A stretch of 64,000 nt of DNA from the IMG/VR virus record IMGVR_UViG_3300025543_005580, positions 47,990 through 111,989 of that record. One strand, written 5' to 3'. Within the stretch, counting starts at the first letter, position 1; the number at the start of each line of letters is the position of its first letter. The notes under the pieces are model-generated. The model was not told where the DNA came from. It saw only the letters and a list, made by a program, of their open reading frames with translations, and did not search any database. The stretch is from a virus. Made by a program: the position numbers and the translations under genes. This document shows positions 16,721 to 53,160 of the stretch, one piece after another.

Positions 16721-18748
16721 TTAGAAATGCATTGTATATAATAATGAACCAAATAAATCTAAACCACCGGATAAAGTATAAACATTATGATTAGCAGATG
16801 TGCTAAAAGTAATACCACCAGCATTTATTTGAGATGAATTAGAACCACCAACATTAAAGAATTGACATTGGGCAACATTTCTAGTATCTAAACTATTATT
16901 TTTACCAGCACCATTTTCTAAAGCATTAGAAGGTAAAGTAACTGTAATAGTACCTGTATCCGATGAATTAATAAATACTTGGAGAGATAATAATTGGCAA
17001 TTTCCTGCACTTGGTGCTTCAATAGTTAATGCTGTTTCACTTACTGCTGTTACATCAAAAGCTGGTATATAAACACCTGCTGTTCCACTTGTATCTCCTG
17101 AATCTGCTACAGTACAAGTAAATGTATTAGTACCTGTTGAAGTAATAGAAACATAAACATAATCTACATTAAAGTTTCTTAATACAACATAATCTCCAGT
17201 TGTTAAACCATGTGATGTTGAAGTTACCGTTAATGTAGTACTTGAACGAGACCAACTTAATCCACTAATAGTATTACCAGCAGACATTAATTGTGCTTTA
17301 TCTGAACCACTAGTTACTTCATATCTAACTACATTAGTATATGGAGTACCACCTCCACCGGCAGCACTAGTACCTGAAGTACCGGCAGCACCACTTGTTC
17401 CAGATGAACCTGGGTTACCTTGAGCACCTGTTTCTCCACTTGTTCCTGATGAACCTGAATCTCCTGAAGTACCTGATGTACCTATTGCTCCATTAGCTCC
17501 ACTTGTACCTGATGTACCTATTGCTCCATTAGCACCTGAAGTACCTGATGTACCTGGGGCACCTGTATCTCCACTTGTTCCTGAAGTACCTGGAGCACCT
17601 GCGGCTCCATTATCACCTGAAGTACCTGATGTACCTGGATTACCTTGAGCACCTACTTCTCCTGAAGTACCTGATGTACCTACAGCACCTGCAGCTCCAC
17701 TTGTTCCTGAAGAACCAGGAGCACCTGCTGCACCTGCGTCTCCTGAAGTACCTGAAGTACCTGGAGCACCTGTGGCTCCATTATCACCTGAAGTACCTGA
17801 AGTACCTGGATTACCTTGAGCACCTACTTCTCCTGAAGTACCTGATGTACCTGGAGCACCTGCGGCTCCATTATCACCTGAAGTACCTGATGTACCTGGA
17901 GCACCTGCGGCTCCATTATCACCTGAAGTACCTGAAGTACCTGGAGCACCTGCGTCTCCTGATGTACCTGAAGTACCTGGAGCACCTGGAGCACCTGCGT
18001 CTCCTGAAGTACCTGATGTACCTGGGTTACCTGCAGCTCCTGTGTCTCCTGAGGTACCTGAAGTACCTGGAGCACCTGCGTCTCCTGATGTACCTGAAGA
18101 GCCAGCATTACCTGAAATTCCTGATGTACCGGATGTACCTATGGCTCCATCTTCTCCTGAAGTACCTGATGTACCTGGAGCACCTGCGACTCCATTATTA
18201 CCTGAAGTACCTGAAGTACCTGGGGCACCTGTATTTCCTGAGGTACCTGAAGTACCTGGGGCACCTGTATTTCCTGAGGTACCTGATGTACCTGGAGCAC
18301 CTGCGACTCCATTATTACCTGAAGTACCTGAAGTACCTACTGCACCTGCAGCTCCATCAGCACCCGAAGTACCTGAAGTACCTACTGCACCGGCAGCTCC
18401 ACTTGTTCCTGAGGTACCTGTAGCTCCTGATTCACCAGACGTACCTGATGAACTTGCACCACCTGATATTGTTATACTAGCTACACCTGCTGCTATATCA
18501 ACACTATCAACTGCTGTACCAGCAAAGTTAAGTGTTGATGCTGTACCTACTGCTGAACCAGTATATTGTATTGGAATTAAACCACTACCACCTCCTCCGG
18601 AACCGGAGACTGCGGGATATACATTACCCTGATAGTCTTTAATATATAAACGACCTAGGTCAGTTGGTTCAGAAAAAAGTGCTACAGATCCAGATGCTGG
18701 ATTTGTTATACTTCCTGATGGGGTTGATTGTTGATTTATTTGAGCCAC
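16721..18748 (-). CDS. Collagen-like fibre protein with GTSG shaft (675 aa)
   Basis: The start is GTG at 18748; an in-frame TAA two codons upstream leaves no other start. Residues 1-~100 are an N-terminal domain (opening MAQINQQSTPSGSITN) typical of small fibre attachment regions. Residues ~101-460 are Gly-X-Y triplets built from blocks such as GAPGTSGTSGDNGAA, so this shaft contains some proline, unlike the giant neighbour. Residues ~465-675 are a beta-rich C-terminal domain. The likely role is a virion fibre or decoration protein. The ATATTTATA motif lies 18 bases upstream and a strong terminator follows, so it appears to be its own transcription unit. The receptor or target is unknown. Confidence 0.87.
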   Translation of the reverse strand: MAQINQQSTPSGSITNPASGSVALFSEPTDLGRLYIKDYQGNVYPAVSGSGGGGSGLIPIQYTGSAVGTASTLNFAGTAVDSVDIAAGVASITISGGASSSGTSGESGATGTSGTSGAAGAVGTSGTSGADGAAGAVGTSGTSGNNGVAGAPGTSGTSGNTGAPGTSGTSGNTGAPGTSGTSGNNGVAGAPGTSGTSGEDGAIGTSGTSGISGNAGSSGTSGDAGAPGTSGTSGDTGAAGNPGTSGTSGDAGAPGAPGTSGTSGDAGAPGTSGTSGDNGAAGAPGTSGTSGDNGAAGAPGTSGTSGEVGAQGNPGTSGTSGDNGATGAPGTSGTSGDAGAAGAPGSSGTSGAAGAVGTSGTSGEVGAQGNPGTSGTSGDNGAAGAPGTSGTSGDTGAPGTSGTSGANGAIGTSGTSGANGAIGTSGTSGDSGSSGTSGETGAQGNPGSSGTSGAAGTSGTSAAGGGGTPYTNVVRYEVTSGSDKAQLMSAGNTISGLSWSRSSTTLTVTSTSHGLTTGDYVVLRNFNVDYVYVSITSTGTNTFTCTVADSGDTSGTAGVYIPAFDVTAVSETALTIEAPSAGNCQLLSLQVFINSSDTGTITVTLPSNALENGAGKNNSLDTRNVAQCQFFNVGGSNSSQINAGGITFSTSANHNVYTLSGGLDLFGSLLYTMHF

Positions 18749-23601: not shown

Positions 23602-25260
23602 CTAGATAGTATCTAAACCAGCTACATAGATTTTACCATAGTACTCAGGACGTAACATCTTCTTAGCGTAACGAGTCATCAAACCTTTACGTGGAGTAAA
23701 CGTTTCTGGATCGTACACAAGAGGAGTCATGATTAATGGAATGTAAGGAGCAAATACAGCACCTGTTTCCAAGAATTGAGAACCTCTATATCCCATTAAC
23801 ATTAAGTTGTTAGTGAAATATGGATTTTTGTAAACTTTGTAACGGTTATTGATTGTACCAATTTTTTGTACACCAAATGCGTACTCACCTTGAGCAGCAT
23901 CACCGTTAGCGTTTGAAGCAAATCCTGGGATTGATTCCAAGATAGTAGCTACTGTTGGAGAAGTAACAATAAAGTTAGCACCACCTCTAAGAGTTAATTG
24001 GTGAATTTTATTGCTCAATTTCTGCATTTTAGTACCTAAAGTTTGGAACCACTCACCTTGAGAGTTGTAGAAACCAGTTTGTGCTACAGTTGTTGGGAAA
24101 TCGAAACTTGAACCATTCCAAACACCGTTGTTTTTAGCTGTCCAGTACTCAGTACCTGCAGCAGCATCAGCGATTAACATATCTAAGATTTCCAAATCAA
24201 TTTCCATTGAAATGTACTCACTCATGATATTTGTTAATTCAGCTTCAGCATCGATGTTTTGGTATGCAGCTAAATCTTGAGCGAACTCAGGAGTCCATAC
24301 TGCTTTCAATTTCTTGGTTTTAGCAGTAATAGCTTGTGATTGCATTTTAACGTTAATTTCTGGAATAACGATGTTAGTCGCAGATAAATCGTTAGGAGAT
24401 GCGTAACCTGGAAGTGCTTGGTCAGCTTCAAAATCACCACGGTTAATATCTGTAGTTAACTTGTTGAAGTATACAGAAGCGGGGTTAAACGTAGGCTGTA
24501 CAGATTGAGATACGAAGAACTCAAGATCAGTACCGTTAGTAGCAACTCTAGTTAAGTCTGAAAGGTTTTCAGCTAAAGTTACATCTGATGAAGAGATAAC
24601 AAATGCAGCAACACCATCTAAATCAGCATTAGCTGGGGCAGCAACAGTTACTTTCCAAATTTCACCTGCAACAAAAGAAGCAGAATATGCATCGTTTACA
24701 TCGATATCTTTGTAATCAGCAGAAACAGCAACAGTTACAGAACCTGTAAGGATAGAAGCTGTGAACTGGTTAGTTGAATAAGCAAAACGACCAGCACCGT
24801 ATAAACCACCTTCAGCTGCAGGAGTTGAGAATGGATAAGAACCAGCAGCGTTACGATCACCATAAAGTGACTCACCAACTGCGAAAGGAGTTTTAGCATT
24901 TCCGTATTGGAAATCTAAGAAGAACACTAGACCAGAAGGCATGTTCATAGGTTGAACAGAAACGAATTCTTTAGCTACGATAGTACCGAATACTTTTCTT
25001 ACTAAAGGTAAAGCAATACCAGCCCAGTTTTCACCTTCAGTACCTGAAGTGAAACCAGAGTTAGTAGAGATTACGTTAGTTTCTGTTACTAATTGTTTTG
25101 CTTGGTTTTCGAGCATCAAAGACATATTGTTCTTCTCAACTTCACCAAGACCTTCAAGTAGTCCTGTTTTAGACCACTTACCTGCTAATTTAGCAGCGTC
25201 AGACTGTAGGTTCTTCCATGAACCAGCAGCAGACTCGAGTAATGAATTTACTTGTGACAT
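23602..25260 (-). CDS. gp23: Major capsid protein (gp23-like)
   Basis: The 552-residue protein is close in length to T4 gp23 (521), with the conserved N-terminal arrangement: a helical propeptide, then a Gly/Ser-rich turn and VQPMNMPSGLVFFLDFQYG at ~102-120, matching the T4 gp23 VQPMNSPTGQVFALR region. It assembles the HK97-fold head shell. In T4, gp21 removes the first 65 residues after an (L/I)-x-E site; candidates here are L-L-E at 34-36 and V-T-E at 58-60. No Shine-Dalgarno is visible; the leader is A-rich (AAAAATTAAAAAACA before ATG). It is preceded by the scaffold gene and followed by a strong terminator. Confidence 0.95.
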   Translation of the reverse strand: MSQVNSLLESAAGSWKNLQSDAAKLAGKWSKTGLLEGLGEVEKNNMSLMLENQAKQLVTETNVISTNSGFTSGTEGENWAGIALPLVRKVFGTIVAKEFVSVQPMNMPSGLVFFLDFQYGNAKTPFAVGESLYGDRNAAGSYPFSTPAAEGGLYGAGRFAYSTNQFTASILTGSVTVAVSADYKDIDVNDAYSASFVAGEIWKVTVAAPANADLDGVAAFVISSSDVTLAENLSDLTRVATNGTDLEFFVSQSVQPTFNPASVYFNKLTTDINRGDFEADQALPGYASPNDLSATNIVIPEINVKMQSQAITAKTKKLKAVWTPEFAQDLAAYQNIDAEAELTNIMSEYISMEIDLEILDMLIADAAAGTEYWTAKNNGVWNGSSFDFPTTVAQTGFYNSQGEWFQTLGTKMQKLSNKIHQLTLRGGANFIVTSPTVATILESIPGFASNANGDAAQGEYAFGVQKIGTINNRYKVYKNPYFTNNLMLMGYRGSQFLETGAVFAPYIPLIMTPLVYDPETFTPRKGLMTRYAKKMLRPEYYGKIYVAGLDTI

Positions 25261-26608: not shown

Positions 26609-27208
26609 TTAAATTACCGGACAAGTGCCATTAGCACACAGTATTTCCGATAATATTGTATTTACTTTTAAGTATTTATCTACTTGAACTTCTTGTCCTT
26701 CTTTAATCATATGCATGTATGATCCTGGGTTTGATGGGGTGGAAACAAAATCCCAACATAATAATTCGAAATCGTCTTGGACTTCTAATACACCATTTCT
26801 ATCCTCTAATGAACCCATACCTCGTGATGACACACCAACTTGTACGTTATTTTCAATTAATGCTTTAAGAATATTTCCTGATGTTGTAGGTAGTACTTCA
26901 ATTTTACCCATTACTTGATCTCCATCCCACCACATATCTCTAATAATATGGGATACATTTTTAAGATTGATGATAGAGGATTCTGGGTGGTCTAATTCAC
27001 CTGTTGCTCTATTTTCTTTTACAAGTACTCTGTATTTATCGATTTCACGTTCCCATAGATCTTTTGAATAATAACGACCATTGCCATTTTTTACTTCAGC
27101 AGTCGCTAAGATACCTTCAACTAATGGGTTACCTGATGGGGCTACCGATTCAGTTAAGCTAACTGGTTTAGCATTAAATGCTTGGGTTTCTATGAGGACC
27201 TGTTTCAT
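26609..27208 (-). CDS. gp21: Prohead core protease (gp21-like serine protease)
   Basis: This 199-residue protein (T4 gp21 has 212) carries the prohead protease signature: GELDHP with the candidate catalytic His74, then IRDMWWDGDQVMGKIEVL, and VGVSSRGMGSL with nucleophile Ser127 or Ser128. In T4 this enzyme trims the capsid, scaffold and internal head proteins at (L/I)-x-E sites inside the prohead. In this genome its likely substrates include the LNE-bearing proteins encoded farther upstream. It begins two bases after the stop of the 203-residue gene and is followed by a terminator. Confidence 0.94.
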   Translation of the reverse strand: MKQVLIETQAFNAKPVSLTESVAPSGNPLVEGILATAEVKNGNGRYYSKDLWEREIDKYRVLVKENRATGELDHPESSIINLKNVSHIIRDMWWDGDQVMGKIEVLPTTSGNILKALIENNVQVGVSSRGMGSLEDRNGVLEVQDDFELLCWDFVSTPSNPGSYMHMIKEGQEVQVDKYLKVNTILSEILCANGTCPVI

Positions 27209-39830: not shown

Positions 39831-40124
39831 TTATTTTACTATTACTTTAAATAAACCTGGGTGTTCTTTTTCGAAATATTTAGCTTGATTATAGCTACGA
39901 CCAAAAACAAATTCATCTAATTCATCTGCATCAGTATATGTCGTAACATCTACTTCACCATCTTCTATTTCATCTTCAGTACCAAATTCATATGGAGAAT
40001 CTGCTAATTCACCTGACTCAACGTCAAAAGCTATTTCTGGGGTTAGAAGTTCAATGTGGTAATCCACTTCTTCTTCAAATAAGCGGCCTTCAGCTAAATA
40101 TTTTTTTAAATTGAAATTGTTCAT
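39831..40124 (-). CDS. Small acidic protein with shared N-terminal tag (97 aa)
   Basis: It opens MNNFNLKKYLAEGRLFEEE, one of six copies of a near-identical N-terminal peptide in this block. The rest is highly acidic (DEIEDGEVDV) and unrelated to the other tagged proteins. The tag resembles T4 capsid-targeting sequences: an amphipathic N-terminus ending in L-x-E sites (LAE, LFE) where gp21 would cut. The upstream leader is A-rich (minus strand AAAATAAAAC before the ATG) with no Shine-Dalgarno. Its likely role is an internal head protein; its function after ejection is unknown. Confidence 0.75.
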   Translation of the reverse strand: MNNFNLKKYLAEGRLFEEEVDYHIELLTPEIAFDVESGELADSPYEFGTEDEIEDGEVDVTTYTDADELDEFVFGRSYNQAKYFEKEHPGLFKVIVK

Positions 40125-40152: not shown

Positions 40153-40683
40153 TTAGATGATATAATACAAATCGTCTTTTAACATTTTCCTCATTTCATC
40201 TTTACTGAATTGAGGGATTGGTTTTCCATTAGCATCCATTTTAAATGCAGGAAGGAATTCTCTTCCATCTTCATCAGATAATTGTGGTATAGCATAAATT
40301 TCAATATCACCATTACTATGGATTTCTACATACCCCTCATCTCCAACAGCATACATACCAGGTTTAACCATTTGAGCTACCATATCAAAATCGTAGGGAT
40401 AATCATTTTCTTCAGCAAATTCTTTTTCGTATACATTAGAATTAAAGCTAAAATTATTATAAAATTTATTAAATTCTTCTTCGTTCCAAGGGCCTGATTG
40501 GTTATAGCCATATATATCATCATTTACTCCATCATAATATCCTGCACCACCTGAACCTACTCCCCCTAAAAGACCATCATCAAATCTAAATCCTGCTTTT
40601 ACGAGTACATCTTCAATGTCTCTTAGTTCTTCTTTTAATAAGCGACCTTCGGCTAAATATTTTTTTAAATCAAAGTTATCCAT
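40153..40683 (-). CDS. Tagged putative internal head protein (176 aa)
   Basis: It opens MDNFDLKKYLAEGRLLKEE, the shared tag, with L-A-E and L-K-E as candidate cut sites. The body is acidic and tyrosine/glycine-rich (DDGLLGGVGSGGAGYYDG, then a YVEIHSNGDIEIYAIPQL beta hairpin). The beta motif is of a kind also seen in the 438-residue tagged protein (EGEIEIISAE). No family is recognised. It is flanked by A-rich spacers of 28-32 bases. The antisense of its first 45 bases is nearly identical to that of the other tagged genes, so the tag is also a DNA-level dispersed repeat. Confidence 0.75.
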   Translation of the reverse strand: MDNFDLKKYLAEGRLLKEELRDIEDVLVKAGFRFDDGLLGGVGSGGAGYYDGVNDDIYGYNQSGPWNEEEFNKFYNNFSFNSNVYEKEFAEENDYPYDFDMVAQMVKPGMYAVGDEGYVEIHSNGDIEIYAIPQLSDEDGREFLPAFKMDANGKPIPQFSKDEMRKMLKDDLYYII

Positions 40684-40715: not shown

Positions 40716-41273
40716 TTATTCGCTTGCTAAATCCATAGCATATTGTTCAACTTCATCGGCATCATACCCAAAATCTTCAACATCTTCTATAAATTCTGCT
40801 TTACCATTAGTAAGTATATTAGCTAATACAGTACCTGCTTCTCCTAAAGCATACTCAAAATCTTCCATTTTACTAAGATCCATTATAGCAGATTTAAAAC
40901 TTTTTTTCTGTATGGGGGTAAGAAAAATTGGTTTTGATTCTTCTTTTTGTTTTTGAATTGGTTGAGATGGTTGAGATGGTGGAGTAAGTTTTTGTAAATT
41001 TAAATCGTTATCCCAAGTTAATTCATAATCCATTAATTTTCCTGTATTAGTTTCCGCTGTAACATTAGCCTGAATTGCTTTATGCTGTATCTTGTTGTTT
41101 TTGGAAGATGTAACCCTAATAGATTGTATAGGATCTAATCCGTTTTGTTCATTATATGTTGATATTATTGGGAATGCCATTTTTTCAATTTCCTCCATAC
41201 CAACATTCACAAAGTTTTCTTCTTCAAATAAGCGACCTTCAGCTAAATATTTTTTTAAATCAAAGTTGTTCAT
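40716..41273 (-). CDS. Tagged putative internal head protein (185 aa)
   Basis: It opens MNNFDLKKYLAEGRLFEEE, the shared tag. The body has a small alpha/beta segment (residues ~25-95), a proline/glutamine linker (PPSQPSQPIQKQKEE) and an acidic helical C-terminus (FIEDVEDFGYDADEVEQY). After the tag the sequence is unrelated to the other tagged proteins. The most likely role is a protein packed into the head and trimmed at L-F-E (15-17). Its function is unknown. Confidence 0.75.
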   Translation of the reverse strand: MNNFDLKKYLAEGRLFEEENFVNVGMEEIEKMAFPIISTYNEQNGLDPIQSIRVTSSKNNKIQHKAIQANVTAETNTGKLMDYELTWDNDLNLQKLTPPSQPSQPIQKQKEESKPIFLTPIQKKSFKSAIMDLSKMEDFEYALGEAGTVLANILTNGKAEFIEDVEDFGYDADEVEQYAMDLASE

Positions 41274-41292: not shown

Positions 41293-41814
41293 TTATACTT
41301 CTATATCTGTTGTATCGTCAACTTCTACATCTATTTCTTCAGTATCACTACCTTCTCCTGGTGATGAGGTTGTTGATGCGGTATCTGATGCTTCTAAAGC
41401 TGCTTCATCTCCCATTTCAGCATCGCTGTTACCATAAGATAACATACGAGCTATAGCTTCAATAGCTCTTTCTTCCTCATTTAAATTAAGTAAATAATAT
41501 TTTTTACCTTCAATTTTAGCAATCCAACTACGAACTGCCCAAATTAAATAAAATACTTCATCATTTGCTAGTACAATTCTAAATGTAGTAGGTTTTGGAG
41601 CTACCCATTGGATATCTTTAACGAATGTTTCAAATTGATCCGTTAGCATATCAACTAATATTCTCTTTAGTTCTGGGAATTTTAAGAGCATTGGAAATTT
41701 TTCAATTTCTAAATCTATAGTGGAATTACCCCCATCCAAATCAACGAATGATCCTGGTTTGTATACTTGGCTTACAAGTCCTTTGATTTTATCTCTTAAT
41801 TCTGATTTAGTCAT
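41293..41814 (-). CDS. Unknown protein with MTKSE-type start and acidic tail (173 aa)
   Basis: The N-terminus MTKSELRDKIKGLVSQVYK is a weak match to the MKKSE module of the 120- and 438-residue proteins. Residues ~30-125 form a mixed alpha/beta domain (with FRIVLANDEVFYLIWAVRSW and KKYYLLNLNEEERA). The tail is Ser/Thr/Asp/Glu-rich and low in complexity. It shares one base with the next upstream gene (TAATG). I recall no family; context suggests a head-internal or scaffold-associated protein. Confidence 0.72.
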   Translation of the reverse strand: MTKSELRDKIKGLVSQVYKPGSFVDLDGGNSTIDLEIEKFPMLLKFPELKRILVDMLTDQFETFVKDIQWVAPKPTTFRIVLANDEVFYLIWAVRSWIAKIEGKKYYLLNLNEEERAIEAIARMLSYGNSDAEMGDEAALEASDTASTTSSPGEGSDTEEIDVEVDDTTDIEV

Positions 41815-43157
41815 TATTTAGACTTTAATTTTTCTGCTAATCTTTTAGCAATTTTTTCGGCTTTACTTAAATCGCCTTTATTCATTGCTTTTCTAGCTTG
41901 TTGGAGTTGATAAGTTTTAGATATATCTCCTTTATGTTTATTCAATGCCTTTTGAATAGCAGAAGCTAACATATCAGCTTTACCTGGGGTTTCTTCGTTT
42001 ATTTCAATATCATCAACAACATCAACTTCCATTTCAGGGGTGATATCATCCATTCTATCTACTACAGCATCAATTGCTGGTTCTTTTAGTTCAAAATCTA
42101 AGTAATGCTTAGCACCTACAATAGCTGATTTAGCATTTGAGATTTTTGATTGCCACCAATGTGGTAAATCAACTTCTCCTTTACCTTCAAAATCATCCAT
42201 CATTTGGTATAATTCCATAGCATATTTTCCAATACGATATAGATCACCTTTTAACATATGAGGTTCGTTATCTTGATGACCAAGATCCATATCTTCTTGC
42301 ATCATGTCCTCATCTTCATCTTCTTCCTCACCGTATTCTTCAATTTCGTCTACGATTGAAGCAATTGTAGTATCGTATCTGTTTGAGCTAGAACCTAAAT
42401 CGAAAGCACCATATGCGTCTCCTTTACTAAGGTAAGATGGGAAGTTTTGTGCGATAATATCTCTGGCTTGATCTCCTAATACTTGGAGTTCATCTAAGAT
42501 ATTTCTTAGCTCCATAAGAGCTTCTACTTTATCTTCATTTAATGCATTTTCACTTAAAAATTTAGCTTTTGCTGCTTTAAAATCACCTTTGTATAGTTGT
42601 TTAACTATTTTACGTCCTAAAGTTTCTAATTGATCTAAATCTAAAGAATGAGGTTTACCAAATCCTTTTAAATATGCCGCTCCAATGTCTCCATACTCTG
42701 CAGGATCAATTACATCTTCAACACCTTCTTTTAGATCACCTAATTCCTTAGCTGCTCTAACAAGATCATTTCTTGCTTCATCTTCACCAACACCTCTGTA
42801 TTTGGCTATCTTTTTAATAGCCATTTTAGCAATGCGTTTTTCTTCAGATGAAGAACTTTCATCTAGGTTTTTTTCAATTGCCGCGCCACGTTTTTCTTCG
42901 TAATCTGAAAGTTTACCATCTTTATTTAGATCGGCTGCTTTAGGATTTTTAAGAGAATCTTTAATCATCTCTCTAACTTTATCTTGATTCATATTTTCAG
43001 TTTTTTTCTTAGCCATATTAGTTGCGCGACCATACATTACTGCTTCCGCGTCCTTACCATAACGTTTAACGAAGGACCTCTTATTTGTTTTGAGGTCCAT
43101 TATCGCATCTTCTCGATTTTCGAGTTCTTGTTTAGTAAGTTCGCGTTCGTTAAGCAT
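41814..43157 (-). CDS. Lysine-rich putative internal head protein (447 aa)
   Basis: I start it at 43157, giving MLNERELTKQELENREDAIM. The frame extends 39 codons further but overlaps the small gene at 43168-43323. The opening, with KRYGKDAEAVMYGRATNMAK near residue 30, is typical of a protein type I recall from marine T4-like phages. An ADLNKDGKLSDYEE segment (about 75-88) is an EF-hand-like calcium loop. L-N-E, A-L-N-E-D and I-N-E-E are spread along the chain and would cut it into pieces. The C-terminal 60 residues are basic (GDLSKAEKIAKRLAEKLK). Its likely role is internal head protein or polyprotein. Confidence 0.78.
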   Translation of the reverse strand: MLNERELTKQELENREDAIMDLKTNKRSFVKRYGKDAEAVMYGRATNMAKKKTENMNQDKVREMIKDSLKNPKAADLNKDGKLSDYEEKRGAAIEKNLDESSSSEEKRIAKMAIKKIAKYRGVGEDEARNDLVRAAKELGDLKEGVEDVIDPAEYGDIGAAYLKGFGKPHSLDLDQLETLGRKIVKQLYKGDFKAAKAKFLSENALNEDKVEALMELRNILDELQVLGDQARDIIAQNFPSYLSKGDAYGAFDLGSSSNRYDTTIASIVDEIEEYGEEEDEDEDMMQEDMDLGHQDNEPHMLKGDLYRIGKYAMELYQMMDDFEGKGEVDLPHWWQSKISNAKSAIVGAKHYLDFELKEPAIDAVVDRMDDITPEMEVDVVDDIEINEETPGKADMLASAIQKALNKHKGDISKTYQLQQARKAMNKGDLSKAEKIAKRLAEKLKSK

Positions 43158-43167
43158 GTGTTTTTTT

Positions 43168-43323
43168 TTACTTGTGTCCTCTTTTGAAGTCAGCGGATAA
43201 GTTTTTGATTTTGTTAGCGGCAGATCTACATCTTCCTTTAGCTGCAGCTGATGTTTTGTCAATTTCTGCTTCAATCAATAATACTTGTTCTTTGATTCCT
43301 TCTAATAATTCTTTAGTTTCCAT
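43168..43323 (-). CDS. Small Hc1-like basic protein (51 aa)
   Basis: The ATG is at 43323 and the TAA at 43168-43170. The 51 residues start METKELLEGIKEQVLLIEAE and end NLSADFKRGHK: an acidic N-terminal helix, then a basic, alanine-rich helix (SAAAKGRCRSAANKIK). The layout resembles the short histone H1-like Hc1 proteins of Bacteroidota and their phages, which bind DNA. An A-rich leader precedes it, and the next gene starts 10 bases after its stop. The frame is clean, but no alignment was possible. Confidence 0.72.
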   Translation of the reverse strand: METKELLEGIKEQVLLIEAEIDKTSAAAKGRCRSAANKIKNLSADFKRGHK

Positions 43324-43370: not shown

Positions 43371-44687
43371 TTATAATAATTTGTTTATCAAGCCATCGTT
43401 ACCTCTACGAACTGTAGATTCGTTAATTGACTCATTATTATCTACTTTAGAAACGTGTGCTCTAGTAAAGTAAGTAATTGTATTACCAATTTGATCAGTT
43501 AGTTTTTCATCTCCTAATTTTTCAGCTTCTTCTTGAGCTTTCATTAGTAAACTTTGAACTGCGATTTCATCTTCACCTTCACCTGGCATACTACCTTTTA
43601 CGTCAATATCGGTTTCAACTGATTCATCATCAACTTCAACATCTTTTTCAATGTCAACATCAACTTTTTCGTTGTCTTCAACATCTACTTCTTCTGCTTC
43701 ATACATATCATCTCCTTCATCCATATCTTCTATTTCGGCTACTGGGTCATATGCATCTGTAGTATCATTGATTGTGATTTCAGCTTCAGCCATCATAGCT
43801 GCTTTAATCATTTCTTTTAACTCTGATTTTTTCATTTTAGTTTTATTTTCGTTTAATTCAGTAGGCATTTCTTCATCTACTATTTCTTCTTTGGTATATG
43901 ATTTTCCACACATTTTTTCGTATAGTTTTTCCATCTTGGCTTTTCGTCTTTCAAGATCTTTAACTTCACGCTGCATTTCTTTCATTTTTTTCTTATCAAC
44001 TAATTGCGATAAGTTATCATCCTCAGTAACCATTGAAATTCTTTGGTTTTTAGATTCGATCATTTCATCAATAGCTGCAATTTTAGCTTCTAAAGCAACA
44101 ACTTGTGATTGTTTTTCGATTTCAGCTAATTTGCTGTCTACTGTTTCTTTTTTCATTTTATTTGATTTTGTTTTTTTAATTTCTTCTTCTTTAATTTCTT
44201 CCATGTAGTCGCTCATTTCTTTTCTGCGCTCCATATAATCGGTTTCTACATCATCAGTCATACCAAGATCCGCTTTGGAATCTTCGGCTGAAATGATTTC
44301 AATTTCGCCTTCAGGGGTAATATAAGCTACTTTAGCATTTCTTGAAGCAGCATTAGTAACTAAATAACCATCACCTTCAGGACGGATTACAAATGAACCA
44401 CCAGCATAATCACCTAAATAATTAGCAATACCGAATCCTCTACTGTCTTCCCAATCATCACCTGGTGTGTTAGGTCCTGCTTCTACATCTAAATCAAAAC
44501 CACCACCACGAGGATCAGCTTCAATTGAGTTAGGTGTAATTATATATTTAAGATCTAATTCATTATCTTCAGCTGTAAATTCATCAGCAACTGCTTGAGC
44601 TACTTTTTGAACTAAATCATCAGTAAGTTCTACTTCGTTTAGTAGCTTACCTTCAGCTAAATATTTTTTATAATTAAAATTATCCAT
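43371..44687 (-). CDS. Tagged coiled-coil protein, likely two-part fusion (438 aa)
   Basis: It opens MDNFNYKKYLAEGKLLNEV, the shared tag with a perfect L-N-E at 16-18. Residues ~20-135 form a small alpha/beta domain. Residues ~145-265 are a charged coiled coil. After a T-E-L-N-E-N site comes MKKSELKEMIKAAMMAEAE, the same kind of start as the 120-residue protein, then a very acidic tail and NNESINEST near the C-terminus. It therefore looks like two internal proteins joined and separable by protease. The ATATTTATA motif lies 16 bases upstream. Confidence 0.8.
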   Translation of the reverse strand: MDNFNYKKYLAEGKLLNEVELTDDLVQKVAQAVADEFTAEDNELDLKYIITPNSIEADPRGGGFDLDVEAGPNTPGDDWEDSRGFGIANYLGDYAGGSFVIRPEGDGYLVTNAASRNAKVAYITPEGEIEIISAEDSKADLGMTDDVETDYMERRKEMSDYMEEIKEEEIKKTKSNKMKKETVDSKLAEIEKQSQVVALEAKIAAIDEMIESKNQRISMVTEDDNLSQLVDKKKMKEMQREVKDLERRKAKMEKLYEKMCGKSYTKEEIVDEEMPTELNENKTKMKKSELKEMIKAAMMAEAEITINDTTDAYDPVAEIEDMDEGDDMYEAEEVDVEDNEKVDVDIEKDVEVDDESVETDIDVKGSMPGEGEDEIAVQSLLMKAQEEAEKLGDEKLTDQIGNTITYFTRAHVSKVDNNESINESTVRRGNDGLINKLL

Positions 44688-44714: not shown

Positions 44715-45008
44715 TTATTTTTTAGACTGATACGTCCCTTTCTTGTATTTTGCAGATTTTGTGTTTTTAACAAATTGTTTACCTTTTTTATCACCACGGA
44801 CTTTTTTAGCTACTGTAGCTTTTCTTTCTGCCTTTGTTAAGGATTGAGCTTTTTTTCTAGGCAAACATCTAGTAGTTGCTTTACCTTTTTTCATAGTACC
44901 ACAAGGGCCAGTAATGTTACCAGCCGTATCAATTCGAACCCAATCCTCTTTTTTAAACCAATCGCGAAGGGATTCTGAAATTATTTCTTGTAGTCTTTCG
45001 TTTGTCAT
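44715..45008 (-). CDS. Small basic phage protein with GPCG/CLPRKKA motifs (97 aa)
   Basis: It begins MTNERLQEIISESLRDWFKK. The EDWVRIDTAGNITGPCGTMK then RCLPRKKAQSLTKAER pattern, followed by a strongly basic C-terminus (KGKQFVKNTKSAKYKKG), belongs to a short domain I recall as widespread in T4-like marine phages, of unknown function. Two cysteines (about residues 36 and 48) may bind metal. An I-S-E site in the first 12 residues fits the prohead protease rule. It shares one base with the upstream membrane protein gene (TAATG). It probably coats or condenses DNA, by composition only. Confidence 0.8.
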   Translation of the reverse strand: MTNERLQEIISESLRDWFKKEDWVRIDTAGNITGPCGTMKKGKATTRCLPRKKAQSLTKAERKATVAKKVRGDKKGKQFVKNTKSAKYKKGTYQSKK

Positions 45009-45589
45009 TATGAAACTGCGTCTTCAACAGCACCTTTTAAAATAGTATTTACTTCAATACCTTTAATTGCTGCTTTTAAACTATATATTCCACCTTTAAG
45101 ATAACTTGCTTTTTTAAGATAAGCAACAGCTTCACCTCCTGCTTGACCTGCCATTAAGAAGATTATAACAGCATATAATACATCGGATATCCATTTTTGT
45201 TTTTTGGTGTCTTTAGTAAAGATACTTACTATTCGTTTAATTGGAGCTTTAAATGCTTCTTCATTTTTATGAGTAAAATCATAAATTTTCTTGGCGGCCT
45301 CTTCACCTTTACCAAAATTATGTTTAGCAAATTGTTTTTTAGCAAATTTAGAAAGCATATTAGCTATTGTATTAGATAATAAAATATATCCTATAATACT
45401 AACAGTAATTGCTACCTCATTGATTTCTTTATCGGACTTTTGAATTTCTTCTTTATGGTCTTCTAATTCATCTTTAATTTCATCTGCTAGATCATCTGCA
45501 AATGCATCTAATTCAGCACCAAATTGATCTTCTTCACTTTCAAATAGCTTGCCTTCAGCTAAATATTTTCTTAAATCGAAATTATCCAT
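45008..45589 (-). CDS. Tagged protein with two membrane-type helices (193 aa)
   Basis: It opens MDNFDLRKYLAEGKLFESE, the shared tag (L-F-E at 15-17). After an acidic helix (res 22-50) come a hydrophobic helix (about 58-80, AITVSIIGYILLSNTIANML), a basic region, and a second hydrophobic helix (about 137-158, VLYAVIIFLMAGQAGGEAVA). The combination of a capsid-targeting-like tag and membrane segments is striking: such a protein could be carried in the head and inserted into the host membrane on infection. No family is recognised. Confidence 0.77.
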   Translation of the reverse strand: MDNFDLRKYLAEGKLFESEEDQFGAELDAFADDLADEIKDELEDHKEEIQKSDKEINEVAITVSIIGYILLSNTIANMLSKFAKKQFAKHNFGKGEEAAKKIYDFTHKNEEAFKAPIKRIVSIFTKDTKKQKWISDVLYAVIIFLMAGQAGGEAVAYLKKASYLKGGIYSLKAAIKGIEVNTILKGAVEDAVS

Positions 45590-45619: not shown

Positions 45620-46015
45620 TTAACTATTTTCCCAGTCTTTTTTTCTTCTATCTACTTCTTGGTAAAAAGCTTCTTCTCCTTTTTCTTTCCAACTTAAATA
45701 ATCAGCATATTTTTCAGGAAAACTAACTATCCATTTATTAATAGCATCATAAGCCTTTTTAACAGATTCAGGTGAAGGATTTATTCTAGGAACAGAGACA
45801 TCAAATTGGCCATCCCACCATCCTGTCATATCATCATTCCAATCGATTCTGAATACATCTGGAAATCGCATAGTTCTAAGTTTTGCTCCTGTTTTGATTT
45901 CTAAATCTTTAGCCATTTGTTCAAAGTCATTAAACATTTCTTTTCTTGAAGGAGTAGTTTCTTGTTCAAATAATCTACCTTCAGCTATATATTTTTTTAA
46001 ATCGAATGTATCCAT
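45620..46015 (-). CDS. Tagged putative internal head protein (131 aa)
   Basis: The start chosen is ATG 46015, giving MDTFDLKKYIAEGRLFEQE, the shared tag. The frame extends 47 codons further upstream, but that part overlaps the 594-residue gene in another frame and is not needed. The body has tryptophan-rich segments (RIDWNDDMTGWWDGQFDVSV) and a helical C-terminus (SWKEKGEEAFYQEVDRRKKD). It is unrelated to the other tagged proteins after residue ~20. Function unknown. Confidence 0.75.
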   Translation of the reverse strand: MDTFDLKKYIAEGRLFEQETTPSRKEMFNDFEQMAKDLEIKTGAKLRTMRFPDVFRIDWNDDMTGWWDGQFDVSVPRINPSPESVKKAYDAINKWIVSFPEKYADYLSWKEKGEEAFYQEVDRRKKDWENS

Positions 46016-46016
46016 T

Positions 46017-47801
46017 TTATTTTTTCTTTTTTCTTCCAGACATTTGTCCTTTACATACTTTAACTGCACGACCTGATAAATAAGCAGATGATTTTTCTCC
46101 TGCTGCTTTACGTCTTTTGATATATGCCTTGCCTTTAGGACATAATTCTTCTTCAATTACACCTTCACCTAATTTAATAGTTTCGGCTAATTCTTGAGCC
46201 ACTGATTTTTTCTTTTCATCACTACTATGACCAAAGGTTTTATGAACTAGTTTATCTAATTCTTTGTGAAATTCATTTTCCTCGTCTTCTGTAGCTTCAT
46301 TTACACCATCAAAATCTCTTTGTTTTAAAGCAGCCATAATAGCGTATACAGCATCTTGTTCGCTATAATCGTATCGTTTAGCCATTGCCTTAATAAAACG
46401 ACTTACTGCTTTAGATACTTCAGGATTAAGTGATTCTTTTATTTCACCTAACATGTTTGGATCCATATTAATGAAATCATCTGATACAGCAAATACTTGG
46501 ACAACTCCATTTTCTTTATCTACTATGTCGATGTCTTCTAAATCATATTCTGCTTTCAAATCTCTAGCTACATCACCAGCTAATCGCATAGCTTCAGCAG
46601 CACTTTCTCTTCGGATTTGACCAGTCATTGTTTCTTTACCTAATGCAATTGATGAACCACCTGGTCCTAAATCATATTCGATATTAACATATAGGAAGTT
46701 AGGGAATTTTTTATCTTTAACATAGCTAGGCATAGATACTCTTGCTCTAGAAGCTTCAGCTATTGATTTACCTCGTTGTTTAGCTTTTCTAACTAATGAA
46801 TTCCAATTAGATAAATCATATTCATCCCATGGTTCAACCTCCATTTTATTGAATGTTTTTTCTTGACCTTCTACTGGTTTGCTATTTAGGTAATGTGTTT
46901 CGTTTTGAGTTAATTCAAAGAATCTATCTACTTGATCTTGGGTAGGCATTTTGCTTTCACCTTCAGCTATTGCTTGATCATAGGTCATTTCTTTTCTACC
47001 TGATAGTTTAGCTATTACTTTATCAATACGATTTAATTTACTACCATATTCATCAGCAATTGGCCCACCTTCTGGTTCAGCTTCTTGCTCCATATCACGC
47101 ATTAATTGTGCTCTTTCTTTTTTGAGGAATGCTATTTTTTTAGCATTATCAAAGAATTTATCGTTACCATCATCACCAGCATTAGCAGCTCTCATTTTAG
47201 CTAATTTATCTTTAGCAGCTCTCATTTTCATAAGAACTGGGTCATTGATGTCCATTTCTTCTAAATTGCCTGCTTGAAGTTCGTACCCCCAACGCTTAAG
47301 TTTAGCTTCTAATTCAGCTTTATCTTTAGCTTCAAAATCGAATGAATCGTTTACACCATAGTAACCCATACCTCTTTTATAGATTTTAGTTTCACCAGCA
47401 TCACCTTTAGGATCATCATAGATAGCAATTTCACCATCGGTAAATGTACCTTCGTTTACTGATTCTTCATAGTAATCTTTATGACCACCGTTTACTCTAA
47501 AAATATCGCTATATTCTCTTCTTGAATAATTTGATGAATCACCTGAAATAGTGATACCTGAATTTCCACCCCAATTCAAACCTGCTGAATCTAGTCTTTG
47601 ACCAATGTCATCAACAATTTCATCTGGGGAATCTTGGCCTGTAATAATATCAATTTCATCCCATTTTGGAACTAACATTATAGTGAATGGGTAGGTTGAT
47701 TTGCTTAGTATTTTAACTACTTTATCAAAATCTTCTTTTGTTACCTTATTTTCTTCTAAAGGTTTAGAAAAGAATTCTTGTATTTTTTTAATATCTTCCA
47801 T
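46017..47801 (-). CDS. Large multi-segment phage protein, candidate polyprotein (594 aa)
   Basis: It opens MEDIKKIQEFFSKPLEENKV. V-N-E tripeptides at 115-117 (EESVNEGTF) and near 494 (DGVNEATED) separate segments of different character: an N-terminal alpha/beta domain, a lysine/glutamate helical middle (ADEYGSKLNRIDKVIAKLSG), a domain with FLYVNIEYDLGPGGSSIAL, and a basic C-terminus LCPKGKAYIKRRKAAGEKSS ending RKKKK. That Cys-containing tail is one I recall at the ends of many T4-like phage proteins. It shares one base with the upstream gene. Its function is unknown; the inferred role is an internal head polyprotein. Confidence 0.78.
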   Translation of the reverse strand: MEDIKKIQEFFSKPLEENKVTKEDFDKVVKILSKSTYPFTIMLVPKWDEIDIITGQDSPDEIVDDIGQRLDSAGLNWGGNSGITISGDSSNYSRREYSDIFRVNGGHKDYYEESVNEGTFTDGEIAIYDDPKGDAGETKIYKRGMGYYGVNDSFDFEAKDKAELEAKLKRWGYELQAGNLEEMDINDPVLMKMRAAKDKLAKMRAANAGDDGNDKFFDNAKKIAFLKKERAQLMRDMEQEAEPEGGPIADEYGSKLNRIDKVIAKLSGRKEMTYDQAIAEGESKMPTQDQVDRFFELTQNETHYLNSKPVEGQEKTFNKMEVEPWDEYDLSNWNSLVRKAKQRGKSIAEASRARVSMPSYVKDKKFPNFLYVNIEYDLGPGGSSIALGKETMTGQIRRESAAEAMRLAGDVARDLKAEYDLEDIDIVDKENGVVQVFAVSDDFINMDPNMLGEIKESLNPEVSKAVSRFIKAMAKRYDYSEQDAVYAIMAALKQRDFDGVNEATEDEENEFHKELDKLVHKTFGHSSDEKKKSVAQELAETIKLGEGVIEEELCPKGKAYIKRRKAAGEKSSAYLSGRAVKVCKGQMSGRKKKK

Positions 47802-49067: not shown

Positions 49068-49640
49068 TTATTTTTTAAGTGATTGTAAAAATTTAATTGT
49101 TTCTTCTTTACTTTCTAGCATTTTTATTTTATTAGAACCAACCCAGCTTTCTATATCACCAGCTTCTGTTATAAAATCTTCGTTAGATTGATTTAGCATT
49201 TCGTCAAACCAAACCTCAAATTCTTTTGTTAAATTATCAACGTTATCGTTTATAAATACGTTATTATATTCTTCCCATAAACCCTTTAATTTTAAATCAG
49301 CTTCAAAGCTAACTTGACATGTTAAACATCTTTTAAATTGTAAATAAAAACGTTTATCTGCTTGCTTTTTCATTAAATTATTACATGAAGGACAAAATAA
49401 AGGCATATGTATTTCCTTTTTAGCATTATCCAGTTTAGTGATGTTTTGTTTAATACCGTTTTTAATAGTCCAAGTACGACCATCAGATTCCCAAACATCA
49501 CCTTCTTCATGAAATTCTTCTACTTTAGTATAACCAACACCTTGTACATTACGAGCCCCATGCTTGCCTGTCATTAGGTTACGAAGACGTTGTACGTCTT
49601 TTTCTTTAAATTCTTTCTTTAAAACTGATTCTTTACTCAT
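49068..49640 (-). CDS. Zinc-ribbon phage protein of unknown function (190 aa)
   Basis: The start chosen is ATG 49640 (MSKESVLKKEFKEKDVQRLR), overlapping the polyprotein stop by 4 bases (ATGA); the longer frame is inside that gene. A GDVWESDGRTWTIKNGIKQN segment (about 47-66) is of a type common in T4-like phages, and CPSC (about 82-85) with CLTC (about 107-110) forms a zinc ribbon. The C-terminal part is acidic and helical. The role may be nucleic-acid binding or transcription-related, unproven. It belongs to the same operon as the polyprotein. Confidence 0.78.
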   Translation of the reverse strand: MSKESVLKKEFKEKDVQRLRNLMTGKHGARNVQGVGYTKVEEFHEEGDVWESDGRTWTIKNGIKQNITKLDNAKKEIHMPLFCPSCNNLMKKQADKRFYLQFKRCLTCQVSFEADLKLKGLWEEYNNVFINDNVDNLTKEFEVWFDEMLNQSNEDFITEAGDIESWVGSNKIKMLESKEETIKFLQSLKK

Positions 49641-51988
49641 AAACCTAATTTTTTTAATTCTTTTATTGTTTGTTCTGTAGATATAAATAATATACCTATT
49701 CCTCCTGCTGCCTTCCATTGGTCAATATTTGAAGGACGATCATCGATTAATATATTATTACCATCAGCATAGTTTTTCTTATTATAAGAATTAGCTAATA
49801 TTAATTTAGTTCCTGGGAGGTTATTTCTAACCCATAAACGTTTACCTAAACGAGAGGAATTTGAACGGGATGGTGAAGATAATAACATTGGGTTATTTGG
49901 TTTAATATACTCCCATAATTGTTTACCATTAGGCATCCAAGGCATACCAACCCAAAATCCAACACCATTTTCATTGTCAATTAAATTCCAAAATGCTTCT
50001 TTGCCATTTTTTTCTTCATATTCACGAGGAGAAATACCACCAGATGCTTTTTCAAATTGCTTATCAAAGTCAACTAATACACCATCCATATCACAATAGA
50101 TAGTATATTTTTGATCATTTACTTCATTCATAACTTTACTTTTATATTCGAATATGGGTAAAGATAATGCCTTAGCTCGGTTTCTCCAAATTTTTAATAT
50201 GTTTTCTCTTTCCTCAGCATTAATAGGTTGAGTATCAAGATAATCATTGATTACATCAATATATGGTTTTTTCGATTTTTTAGCTTTAAAGTATAAACCT
50301 TGAAGCATAGCATCTATTTCTTTGGGTAATCTAAAGTAATCTGCTTTAGGTAGTAAATCCAAATTAATTAAATCTCTAATTGTTTGATCATCATCCATTT
50401 GCTTACTAGGTCTTACTAGTTTTGGATCATCACTATCTACTCCACCTTTAACATTTTCTCCATCTTGAGTTAAATGCTCAAGCTCGTGTCTTACAACATC
50501 TTTAATATCAAATGATACTTTTTGCCAGTCTGGGTTTTTAGGTATTTTAAATTTAACTGATAGTAAGGGGGTTATTTCATTTCCTTTAGTATCAAATCCA
50601 GCATTTGCTCCTCCATCCACATTATACTCATCATCTGTAATTTCTACTACGCCTTCAAAATCAAAATAAAATTCTTCAGATGGAATATCATGTTCATCAT
50701 CTGGGTGGTCTACTCTAAATTCAAAGTCGCCTTTTTTATCTCCTCTATCGTGAATATCTTTAAATGCTTCAAATGCAATTTTAGATAATTGGTTAGTTAG
50801 TGTATCATAACGACCTTCGTTTAATGATTCTTCTAAACCTTGGGCTAATTCACGAGCGTATTGATTTAAACCAAATGGGTCTTTATTTTTTTTCTCTTCA
50901 AGTGGGGTATTATTATGCTCACATTTATGGCATGTAAATAAATCATCCCCACCATCTGCTATTTTCCAACTCCAGCCACAATTGTCACATTCGATTTTAT
51001 CGCCTATAATTGCTTCATTTAAGCTATCAGTCCAATTTCTAAATGTCATTGTACCTTTCAAATTAGCTTCAGCTTCAATATCATTTAAGTTATCGTCTTC
51101 CTGTGTATTAGTTGTAGTAATATCACTCAATCTACCCTCTAAATTTTGAATGTGATGTACCATTTCATGTGAGAATGAACGTACTATATCTTTAGGATGT
51201 CGTCCCTCAGTATATAGCACGATTGTACTTGTGTTTGGGTTATAATACGCTGTTTTACCGAAAAAATCACGTGCGTTTTCGCTATCACCGTTAATAAATT
51301 CAACTGTGGGTAAGGGATCAATATTATATCCCTTATCTCTCATATAATTAGTTAATTCGATTATTTTATTTTTATAATCTATATCTTTAGAATATGAAGC
51401 ATTTTCGTTTAATGACTCCTTAACTACATCTTGTATGTAACCAAATATTTCTAATTTTTCATCATCAGTTAAATTTGATGGTAAAAATTTGTAGAATGAT
51501 TCTGGGGATTGCTTTGCTGCTGATCTTGCTTTAGTACCACTAACATTGGCATCTGGAGTTTGGATTATTTTAACTTTAACATTTGGATATTTATCTTCTA
51601 CACCAGTTGTTCTTAAAGCAACATCTGTTAGATCATCTTCATTTCCTTGCCTAGCACCTATAATAAAGTAAACTACTTCTTCAGGATGGTTTTTTCCATA
51701 TCTTAAAATATCACCTATTGGTGCTTTTGATGGTTGTATTTCTACTTTTGATGGAAGATAATTTTTATATATATCCCATATCAACAAAGATTCTTCTTGA
51801 GTAATACCATTACGTTCTCCACTACCCACATAAATAATAAATTTATCTATTTCAGGGAAGTCAGATAGTGCTTTTTGTACTACTTCAAGATGTCCTTTTG
51901 TTGGTGGTTTGAAACCGCCACCATAAACAGCGGTTACCAAATTATCACCAACTAGTTCGGATATTAACGACTTAGTTAGTGAATTCAT
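49637..51988 (-). CDS. Multi-enzyme polyprotein: nucleotidyltransferase, two zincins, HAD phosphatase
   Basis: The 783 residues carry five modules. Residues 17-190 are a cytidylyltransferase-type domain with YGGGFKPPTKGH (22-33) and a C-terminal VSGTKARS (149-156). Residues ~200-320 are a metalloprotease-like domain with HEMVHH (274-279). Residues 330-360 are a zinc ribbon, C334/C337 and C353/C356. Residues 400-610 are a second zincin with HELEH (501-505). Residues 628-783 are a HAD-type nucleotidase with DMDGV (633-637) and LIDDRPSN. L-N-E or M-N-E tripeptides lie at 193-195, 323-325, 389-391 and 620-622, the four module junctions. The N-terminus SLISEL (I-S-E at 9-11) also fits a protease-cut targeting peptide. 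I infer packaging and cleavage by gp21. The modules are from motif recognition; substrates are unknown. Confidence 0.87.
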   Translation of the reverse strand: MNSLTKSLISELVGDNLVTAVYGGGFKPPTKGHLEVVQKALSDFPEIDKFIIYVGSGERNGITQEESLLIWDIYKNYLPSKVEIQPSKAPIGDILRYGKNHPEEVVYFIIGARQGNEDDLTDVALRTTGVEDKYPNVKVKIIQTPDANVSGTKARSAAKQSPESFYKFLPSNLTDDEKLEIFGYIQDVVKESLNENASYSKDIDYKNKIIELTNYMRDKGYNIDPLPTVEFINGDSENARDFFGKTAYYNPNTSTIVLYTEGRHPKDIVRSFSHEMVHHIQNLEGRLSDITTTNTQEDDNLNDIEAEANLKGTMTFRNWTDSLNEAIIGDKIECDNCGWSWKIADGGDDLFTCHKCEHNNTPLEEKKNKDPFGLNQYARELAQGLEESLNEGRYDTLTNQLSKIAFEAFKDIHDRGDKKGDFEFRVDHPDDEHDIPSEEFYFDFEGVVEITDDEYNVDGGANAGFDTKGNEITPLLSVKFKIPKNPDWQKVSFDIKDVVRHELEHLTQDGENVKGGVDSDDPKLVRPSKQMDDDQTIRDLINLDLLPKADYFRLPKEIDAMLQGLYFKAKKSKKPYIDVINDYLDTQPINAEERENILKIWRNRAKALSLPIFEYKSKVMNEVNDQKYTIYCDMDGVLVDFDKQFEKASGGISPREYEEKNGKEAFWNLIDNENGVGFWVGMPWMPNGKQLWEYIKPNNPMLLSSPSRSNSSRLGKRLWVRNNLPGTKLILANSYNKKNYADGNNILIDDRPSNIDQWKAAGGIGILFISTEQTIKELKKLGL

Positions 51989-52366
51989 TTATTGTTTTAG
52001 TTTTTGGATTTTTTCCTTAGCTATACGTTTCTTTTCTTCGATGTCCTTTTTAGCACCTCGAAAAGACTCCATAGCATCTTCCATTTCTTTGAGACTATCT
52101 TGATATGCATTTAGTGCTTCTGATCCTGCTCTCTTTGCATCTAATTTTTGTTTATAGATACCTAAAATATTTTTAACATCTAATCCACCTTTGATTTGAA
52201 GAGCGAATGAAGGAAGGTCTAATTCGTAAACCACATCTTCCATTTCGGAATCTTTGGTTGGTTTTTCTACGATAAAAAATTTGCCGATCTCATCTACCAT
52301 TGAAGTCGCTACTTCAGTAACTACTTCATTTGTTTCTATTTCGTTTAATATATCTACTAATTTCAT
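51989..52366 (-). CDS. Small helical protein with ILNE start (125 aa)
   Basis: It opens MKLVDILNEIETNEVVTEVA: I-L-N-E lies at 6-9, exactly where a capsid-targeting leader would be cut. Residues ~25-60 form a short alpha/beta segment and the C-terminal 55 residues a charged coiled coil (AKRAGSEALNAYQDSLKEME). It overlaps the kinase gene by 4 bases (ATGA) and abuts the polyprotein gene. Its likely role is an internal head protein or a partner of the kinase. No family is recognised. Confidence 0.74.
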   Translation of the reverse strand: MKLVDILNEIETNEVVTEVATSMVDEIGKFFIVEKPTKDSEMEDVVYELDLPSFALQIKGGLDVKNILGIYKQKLDAKRAGSEALNAYQDSLKEMEDAMESFRGAKKDIEEKKRIAKEKIQKLKQ

Positions 52367-53160
52367 TTTTTAAGGAATTGGTTTAATCTCATTTGTGCCT
52401 CTTCTTTAGACATAGTATATTCAATTACATCATATACAAAGTCATCACTTAACATAGATTGAATTTCTTCTTTATCTTGAGCATTTCGCTCATCTGATTT
52501 TTTCTGTTGAGCTGGAGTTTTTGGTTTAGTATCTGTAGGTGCGAATGGTTTAAGATATTTATCTATAATCTTATCTATATCTTGCATTCTATCATCTAAT
52601 GTATTAGCTACAGCAACAAAATTATTACCAAATAAATCAGCATATTTAGGTAGGTTTTCTGTTACACCTTTCCAAGTACGCATTACAATAGCAGGTGCTA
52701 AGCTTCTATCTTCACCACCTGATTTTTGGTATCTATCTTGATTTTGTCTTAACGAACGTTCTAGATCAGTATAAACGTAAAGCATAAATACATCGTATCC
52801 TGCTTCCTCCAATTGTTGTTTTAATTCAGCTGTTTTTTTAAATGAAGCGGCTGTACCATCTAAAACAAAGGATTGTTTACCATCTATTACACCTTGTAGC
52901 TCACCCTTAAATTCTTTGTTAGCTGCAGCCATTGCTTTAGCTTGCTCACTTCTTTCCTCAGGAGTAGCATTTTTTAAATCTAAAGATACATTGGCTTGTT
53001 TAAGTTTACTAATAAAGGTATTGTCTATATTAAGGATTTTTAAATCACCTATATCTAATTTTGATAAAATAGACCCTTTACCAGCACCCGGGGCACCAGC
53101 AAGAATTACTGCTTTAGGTTTAGATATAGCCTCCTTTAAAAGTTCTGTCAACAAAATCAT
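52363..53160 (-). CDS. P-loop kinase, zeta-toxin-like fold
   Basis: The 265-residue protein has Walker A GAPGAGKGS (22-30), preceded by MILLTELLKEAIS, whose L-T-E and L-K-E resemble the cleavable leaders of the neighbours. KQSFVLDGTAASFKKTAEL (about 104-122) and the VYTDLERSLRQNQDRYQKSG lid (about 139-158) give the layout of zeta-toxin/polynucleotide-kinase-like P-loop kinases. The C-terminal ~60 residues are a basic/acidic extension. Such enzymes phosphorylate nucleotide sugars, tRNA ends or polynucleotides; the substrate here is unknown. If the leader is a capsid tag, the kinase would be injected with the DNA. Confidence 0.83.
   Translation of the reverse strand: MILLTELLKEAISKPKAVILAGAPGAGKGSILSKLDIGDLKILNIDNTFISKLKQANVSLDLKNATPEERSEQAKAMAAANKEFKGELQGVIDGKQSFVLDGTAASFKKTAELKQQLEEAGYDVFMLYVYTDLERSLRQNQDRYQKSGGEDRSLAPAIVMRTWKGVTENLPKYADLFGNNFVAVANTLDDRMQDIDKIIDKYLKPFAPTDTKPKTPAQQKKSDERNAQDKEEIQSMLSDDFVYDVIEYTMSKEEAQMRLNQFLKK

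Follow-up and report, generated by a model that had tools for sequence, protein, structure and literature searches.

The window analysed here is a stretch of 64,000 nucleotides, part of a 112-kb virus record (IMG/VR IMGVR_UViG_3300025543_005580). On its minus strand, among genes for head and internal proteins, lies a gene for a modular polyprotein. The features under discussion are collected in Table 1; in all peptides below, a slash marks the point after the Glu of a prohead-protease-like site. Just upstream of the polyprotein gene is one for a Zeta-toxin-like P-loop kinase (window 52363-53160; Pfam 1.3e-17), which has its own leader, MILLTELLKE/A. The tail genes include one for a collagen-like protein with GTSGTSG repeats (window 16721-18748).

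Table 1. Features of the window, with positions counted from its first nucleotide
Feature	Position	Strand	Detail
Major capsid protein gp23	23602..25260	(-)	Pfam Gp23 2e-76
gp21-type prohead protease (S77)	26609..27208	(-)	Pfam PF03420 7.4e-30; T4 gp21 structure 5jbl 6.6e-16
Small protein with capsid-targeting-like leader	39831..40124	(-)	MNNFNLKKYLAE/G
Protein with leader	40153..40683	(-)	MDNFDLKKYLAE/G
Protein with leader	40716..41273	(-)	MNNFDLKKYLAE/G
Protein with leader	43371..44687	(-)	MDNFNYKKYLAE/G
Protein with leader	45008..45589	(-)	MDNFDLRKYLAE/G
Protein with leader, internal ATG start	45620..46015	(-)	MDTFDLKKYIAE/G
Modular polyprotein ORF	49637..51988	(-)	783 aa
Module HAD, 5'-3' deoxyribonucleotidase-like	49640..50110	(-)	residues 627-783; phrog_2643 4e-27
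Junction site 4	50123..50131	(-)	KVMNE622/VND
Module HB, second HExxH domain	50153..50806	(-)	residues 395-612
Junction site 3	50816..50824	(-)	ESLNE391/GRY
Module ZR, zinc ribbon	50900..51001	(-)	residues 330-363, 34 aa; CDNCGWSW..CHKCEHNN
Junction site 2	51014..51022	(-)	DSLNE325/AII
Module HA, HExxH minimal-zincin-like domain	51029..51394	(-)	residues 199-320
Junction site 1	51404..51412	(-)	ESLNE195/NAS
Module NT, adenylyltransferase	51473..51937	(-)	residues 18-172; Pfam PF01467 (CTP_transf_like) 1e-4
N-terminal leader	51956..51988	(-)	MNSLTKSLISE/L, IxE site at residue 11

The first module of the chain, NT, is matched by Foldseek to PPAT/NadD (5ts2, E 4.7e-7; TMt 0.73 to PPAT), and it contains both GGFKPPTKGH, which resembles GxFxPxHxGH, and VSGTKAR (SxTxxR). 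Motifs and fold are those of a nucleotidylyltransferase, and the module may well catalyse a reaction of that kind. The AF2 model of HA (pLDDT 92.9) finds only weak PDB matches, to IrrE, selecase and SPRTN-type proteins (best E 0.056). In the HA alignment, H76, E77, H80, E107 and E109 are invariant, and HExxH is kept in 117 of 118 copies; HB keeps its HExEH in 69 of 69. The counterpart of the zinc ribbon in one relative (L008) has a weak Pfam DZR match, and HAD is, in many relatives, a separate gene with an LxE leader of its own. An AlphaFold model of the full chain, from an 18-sequence alignment, is good for NT, moderate for HAD and poor for HB. The five module identities given in the first-pass annotation hold, and the matches in Table 1 confirm that the gene which it took for a gp21 homologue encodes a genuine S77 prohead protease. 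That annotation also spoke of five enzymes. Five modules there are; a zinc ribbon, of course, is no enzyme, and the products of cutting would therefore be four enzyme-like domains and a ribbon.

Between these modules the chain contains exactly four [LIVM]NE tripeptides, at residues 193-195, 323-325, 389-391 and 620-622, one in each inter-module linker and precisely where the first-pass annotation had placed them. Four or more such tripeptides arise with a probability of 0.018 when the protein is shuffled, but none of 100,000 shuffles put one into each of the four linkers; for four sites placed at random, the probability of one per linker is 5e-6. All four lie within or at the edge of segments where AlphaFold pLDDT falls below 50 (189-194, 286-329, 362-394 and 613-625). 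The looser pattern [LIVM]xE occurs 13 times. Nine of these are in low-confidence segments, namely the four just described and five others (among them the IxE at residue 11), and the remaining four are within predicted helices or strands of the modules, where folding would have to protect them from a protease. Many linkers hold two sites (for example, VKE191 and LNE195), which makes it uncertain where exactly a cut would fall.

Among viral contigs, a scan turned up 80 loci with homologues of this chain, from about 390 to 1312 aa long. Among 58 non-redundant proteins, about 20 module types (described by 20 module HMMs) meet in 60 types of junction. The adenylyltransferase comes first in nearly all homologues, and HA is found in essentially all complete ones; the modules downstream of the first are shuffled, duplicated and exchanged. 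One chain (L015:3062-6829) combines, between prohead-protease-like sites, an Fe/Mn superoxide dismutase that is complete (Pfam 4.5e-29 and 5.7e-19) with a plastocyanin-type cupredoxin (6.8e-14). In another (L040:9992-12985), one module is a CCA-adding/polyA polymerase (1.6e-32), and a second HAD-like domain is also present. GIY-YIG (L229) and GNAT (L175) modules also occur, as do weak matches to ART-like (L226) and KptA-like (L044) domains.

One relative is in culture. Gene 183 of Flavobacterium phage vB_FspM_immuto_2-6A (MW353175), annotated solely as an NMN adenylyltransferase (NadR), is a direct homologue with 41% identity. It resembles the window protein in its gene neighbourhood and in having LAE, VKE, LPE and MAE at its junctions. 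The predicted cut points are TLAE/ALDD, VVKE/GSSG, RLPE/GAEQ and VMAE/GRYD in gene 183 and LEE/SDFM in gene 184. The protein differs by an extra N-terminal Pol-beta-like module and by the lack of a zinc ribbon, and this phage encodes its HAD separately, behind an LEE leader.

The relatives allow the junction motif to be examined well beyond a single chain. Here, with module cores delimited by eye, [LIVM]xE is present in all 155 distinct short linkers, which represent the 60 junction types; shuffled linkers yield 79±6, and stretches of equal length from module cores 23±4. The narrower [LIVM]NE is found in 88 of the 155, against 9 after shuffling and 1 in module cores, while the control patterns LxD and LxK stay near background with no comparable excess.

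Because the cores had been drawn by eye, the result was rechecked in two ways. The first is blind to the motif: the ends of BLAST alignments between differently arranged proteins peak at the exact register of LxE, a signal weaker than that of the linker test, though clear. In the second, a hold-out, two further scans delivered 64 new proteins below 85% identity, for which the module models had been fixed beforehand. The site is present in 116 of 117 new linkers, compared with 59 in shuffles (maximum 77) and 24 in cores (maximum 37). With both sets combined, 271 of 272 unique junctions carry [LIVM]xE. The view that this is a multi-enzyme chain with gp21-type sites at its junctions therefore passed both the comparative test and the hold-out. 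The outcome that the first-pass annotation named as a refutation, homologues with the fusion but without the tripeptides, did not emerge, although a middle Asn is not required. In the junction logo, P3 is L, V or I, P2 is any residue (N being the commonest, 73 of 150), P1 is E, and P1' is N, G, E or A. A strict L-N-E motif was dropped in favour of [LIVM]xE, N being merely the commonest choice at P2.

The codons at the junctions were also considered. Where the site has the hydrophobic-N-E form, TTA AAT GAA is the commonest triplet (43 of 101). Nevertheless, junction codons broadly follow the usage of the genome, with several synonyms and with I, V and L as alternatives, which implies that selection acts on the peptide. 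A recombination or translation signal at the level of DNA was not needed to explain them.

Two linker peptides recur. One, KDPFGLNQYARELAQGLEE, precedes HB or HAD modules, at window 50824-50900 and in many linkers elsewhere; the idea that it repeats the leader MDNFDLKKYLAEG within the chain was abandoned when a PSSM of 30 leaders scored it no better than shuffles. The other, DGKAAPYGSGY or AGTALPYGSGF, appears in many linkers (L004, L011, L015, L068 and others) and in a standalone gene (L082:23226-23696).

Modules do exist as separate genes elsewhere, which the first-pass annotation had raised as a comparison, and their leaders end at the point where the fusion has its junction: MQLTLSDILFE/GKYD, MIKLIDILFE/GDPK and MESLKELLKE/GYPL. 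At site 3, for example, DILFE/GKYD in a standalone homologue corresponds to LNE/GRYD in the fusion. The polyproteins have leaders as well. That of the window protein is, to judge from its sequence, a probable targeting propeptide, and homologous leaders have the form MN.LTK.LV..ILNE/. Where the N-terminal extension of a polyprotein is at least 12 aa long, it contains [LIVM]xE in 58 of 59 cases (for example, MNQLTKFLVDGILNE/G). A further 26 of 85 homologues have no leader and start directly at the NT module (MGK...). In two loci (L003:9088-9999 and L012:9189-10019), such leaderless starts (MGK or MSK) overlap the end of the gene before, whose product has a capsid-targeting-like leader, an arrangement hinting at translational coupling.

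Leaders of this general kind are frequent in the neighbourhood. Six mostly dissimilar proteins encoded between window positions 39831 and 46015 share the N-terminus M[DN][NT]F[DN][LY][KR]KY[LI]AE/G, probably a capsid-targeting sequence conserved in the clade; the version in the second of them has 35 conserved examples on diverse proteins in these genomes. Over the stretch of head and internal proteins, 23 of 35 genes begin with an LxE leader, against 2 of 16 elsewhere. Long proteins without HExxH, with internal LNE, INE or VNE and with shared modules, are encoded at window 41814-43274 and 46017-47801 and at L082:26048-28573, and are possibly further polyproteins.

The proteins of the maturation machinery carry similar sites. 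In an alignment of gp21 homologues, LIE and L[TND]E are conserved close to the N-terminus and [LVI]xE close to the C-terminus, where immuto gp21 reads LNE/G. The propeptide of gp23 likewise has conserved LxE sites, including VTE60/T, whose middle residue varies freely. Alignment with T4 gp23* did not settle the maturation cut between two nearby candidates, MLE51 and VTE60; the VxE is favoured since its P2 varies while its V and E do not. An S77 protease is present in 25 of 25 polyprotein-bearing records checked of at least 58 kb, and all misses are fragments of 53.6 kb or less, although gp21 is general in T4-like phages and its co-occurrence with the polyprotein is accordingly weak evidence.

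What might such a chain be for? Most probably, it is a polyprotein of a T4-like marine phage that is targeted to the prohead, is cut there by the gp21 homologue at its junctions, and so releases enzymes for delivery. Here, a late-gene product of a relative of the Flavobacterium phage would enter the prohead core as a single chain. The S77 protease would then cut each of the inter-module linkers after [L/I/V/M]-x-E, which would free the adenylyltransferase, the two zincin-like domains, the zinc ribbon and the nucleotidase within the head. The freed proteins would enter the cell together with the DNA. Evolution, in turn, could exchange modules, each of which would retain its cut site. Packaging, cleavage, delivery and the catalytic activities of the modules are all predicted from sequence.

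A serious alternative is that the chain processes itself, one of its HExxH modules cutting at the junctions. HA, after all, is near-universal in the homologues, its HExxH is retained and its model is zincin-like. Further, Iyer et al. (2017, PMC5512222) proposed a processing role for metallopeptidase domains of this sort in the polyvalent proteins that phages and conjugative elements encode. However, the same phages encode 568 proteins that lack HExxH and yet have [LIV]xE at their module borders (a peak of 283 over a median of 85), where LxD and LxK are flat; this argues against self-processing. The motif also ends the leaders of standalone modules that have no HA, occurs in gp21 and gp23, and is the known motif of the T4 prohead protease. 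Self-processing is, on balance, unlikely.

It might also be that the chain is never cut and works as one multi-domain enzyme. Here, LxE would be a relic of leader-bearing genes that became fused, or else a signature of linkers or of recombination. Modules that exist as separate leader-bearing genes are what this would lead one to expect, and the prevalence of a single codon triplet at the junctions could be read in the same way. A relic, however, would not be expected to retain the tripeptide alone, across unrelated contexts, with the remainder of the leader gone. Nor would its P2 vary while P3 and P1 stay constant, with codons drawn from the general usage of the genome. In addition, C-terminal modules often end without a site (for example, in WEDSIKNV before the stop codon). 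We regard this possibility as quite improbable.

That the sites are cut in the infected cell, in a cytoplasmic polyprotein that never joins the virion, would suit the lack of a leader in about a third of homologues and a literature in which we found no virion proteomics or cleavage data for the family (the main text of the Baltic Flavobacterium phage paper, where virion proteomics was sought, does not mention immuto), but it is very improbable given the location of the gene among head and internal-protein genes, the concentration of LxE leaders there, and the action of T4 gp21 within proheads (PMC5694885).

Cutting by the gp21 homologue inside the prohead has a more general counterpart. It is likely that a whole clade of phages of the T4 type, Flavobacterium being the host of at least one, uses a plug-and-play cassette of virion effectors: a single gene would encode an array of exchangeable enzymes, each flanked by a prohead-protease site, with one leader loading many of them in fixed stoichiometry and head maturation setting them free. 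The cargo list comprises adenylyltransferase, nucleotidase, zincins, superoxide dismutase, cupredoxin, CCA-adding enzyme, ADP-ribosyltransferase-like, GIY-YIG and GNAT modules. If this is so, tailed phages share with many eukaryotic viruses the strategy of the polyprotein, and it is their capsid maturation protease that does the processing. This would answer both how the domains of polyvalent proteins separate and how a single packaging signal can serve many effectors. The boundaries of the products would be predicted residue by residue, so that many unannotated virion effectors could be delimited from sequence, including enzymes that, like superoxide dismutase, one would not expect a phage head to contain. 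With the cultured immuto, the question of how polyvalent proteins separate becomes directly testable.

Among systems that might be compared, the polyproteins of crAss-like phages are a possible parallel; a literature search for them gave no match. The polyvalent proteins are closer. These are multi-domain chains proposed to be injected together with the DNA, and the claim in the first-pass annotation that no phage precedent exists was, in view of them, too strong. The chain described here has the disparate domains, the shuffled architectures and the zincin-like hub that define polyvalent proteins; its transfer to the host would follow from its leader and gene context. Long chains of disparate enzymes, zincin-like domains and ART, GNAT and Pol-beta NTase-like types are common to both, although the word adenylyltransferase is absent from the text of PMC5512222. 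The mechanism proposed there is a different one, in which a metallopeptidase of the chain itself or a fused assemblin-like peptidase does the processing. A prohead-protease motif at the junctions is a feature of the present chains, and none was noticed in the part of PMC5512222 at hand.

In phiKZ and SPN3US, an S80 protease cuts the large propeptides of ejected head proteins repeatedly after a motif ending in Glu (PMC10052503, PMC5694885). Those cuts remove or break up propeptides; the parts of these accounts at hand do not describe the separation of enzyme modules arranged in series.

A further comparison is with T4 itself. Its capsid-targeting sequence has ten residues, and processing is controlled by those at positions 8 and 10 (PMC9026906); in the Alt protein, gp21 cuts at two sites, ITE-6 and LTE-619 (PMC5694885). 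The internal proteins and Alt have a leader ending in [LI]xE that an S77 prohead protease removes, as it would the probable leader of the present chain, and they are delivered together with DNA, as the modules here presumably would be. Each T4 precursor, however, gives one mature protein, whereas here many modules are strung together and a site separates each from the next. The chain would thus work in the manner of a T4 internal protein repeated many times over. The new element would be one prohead-protease site per junction, travelling with the modules.
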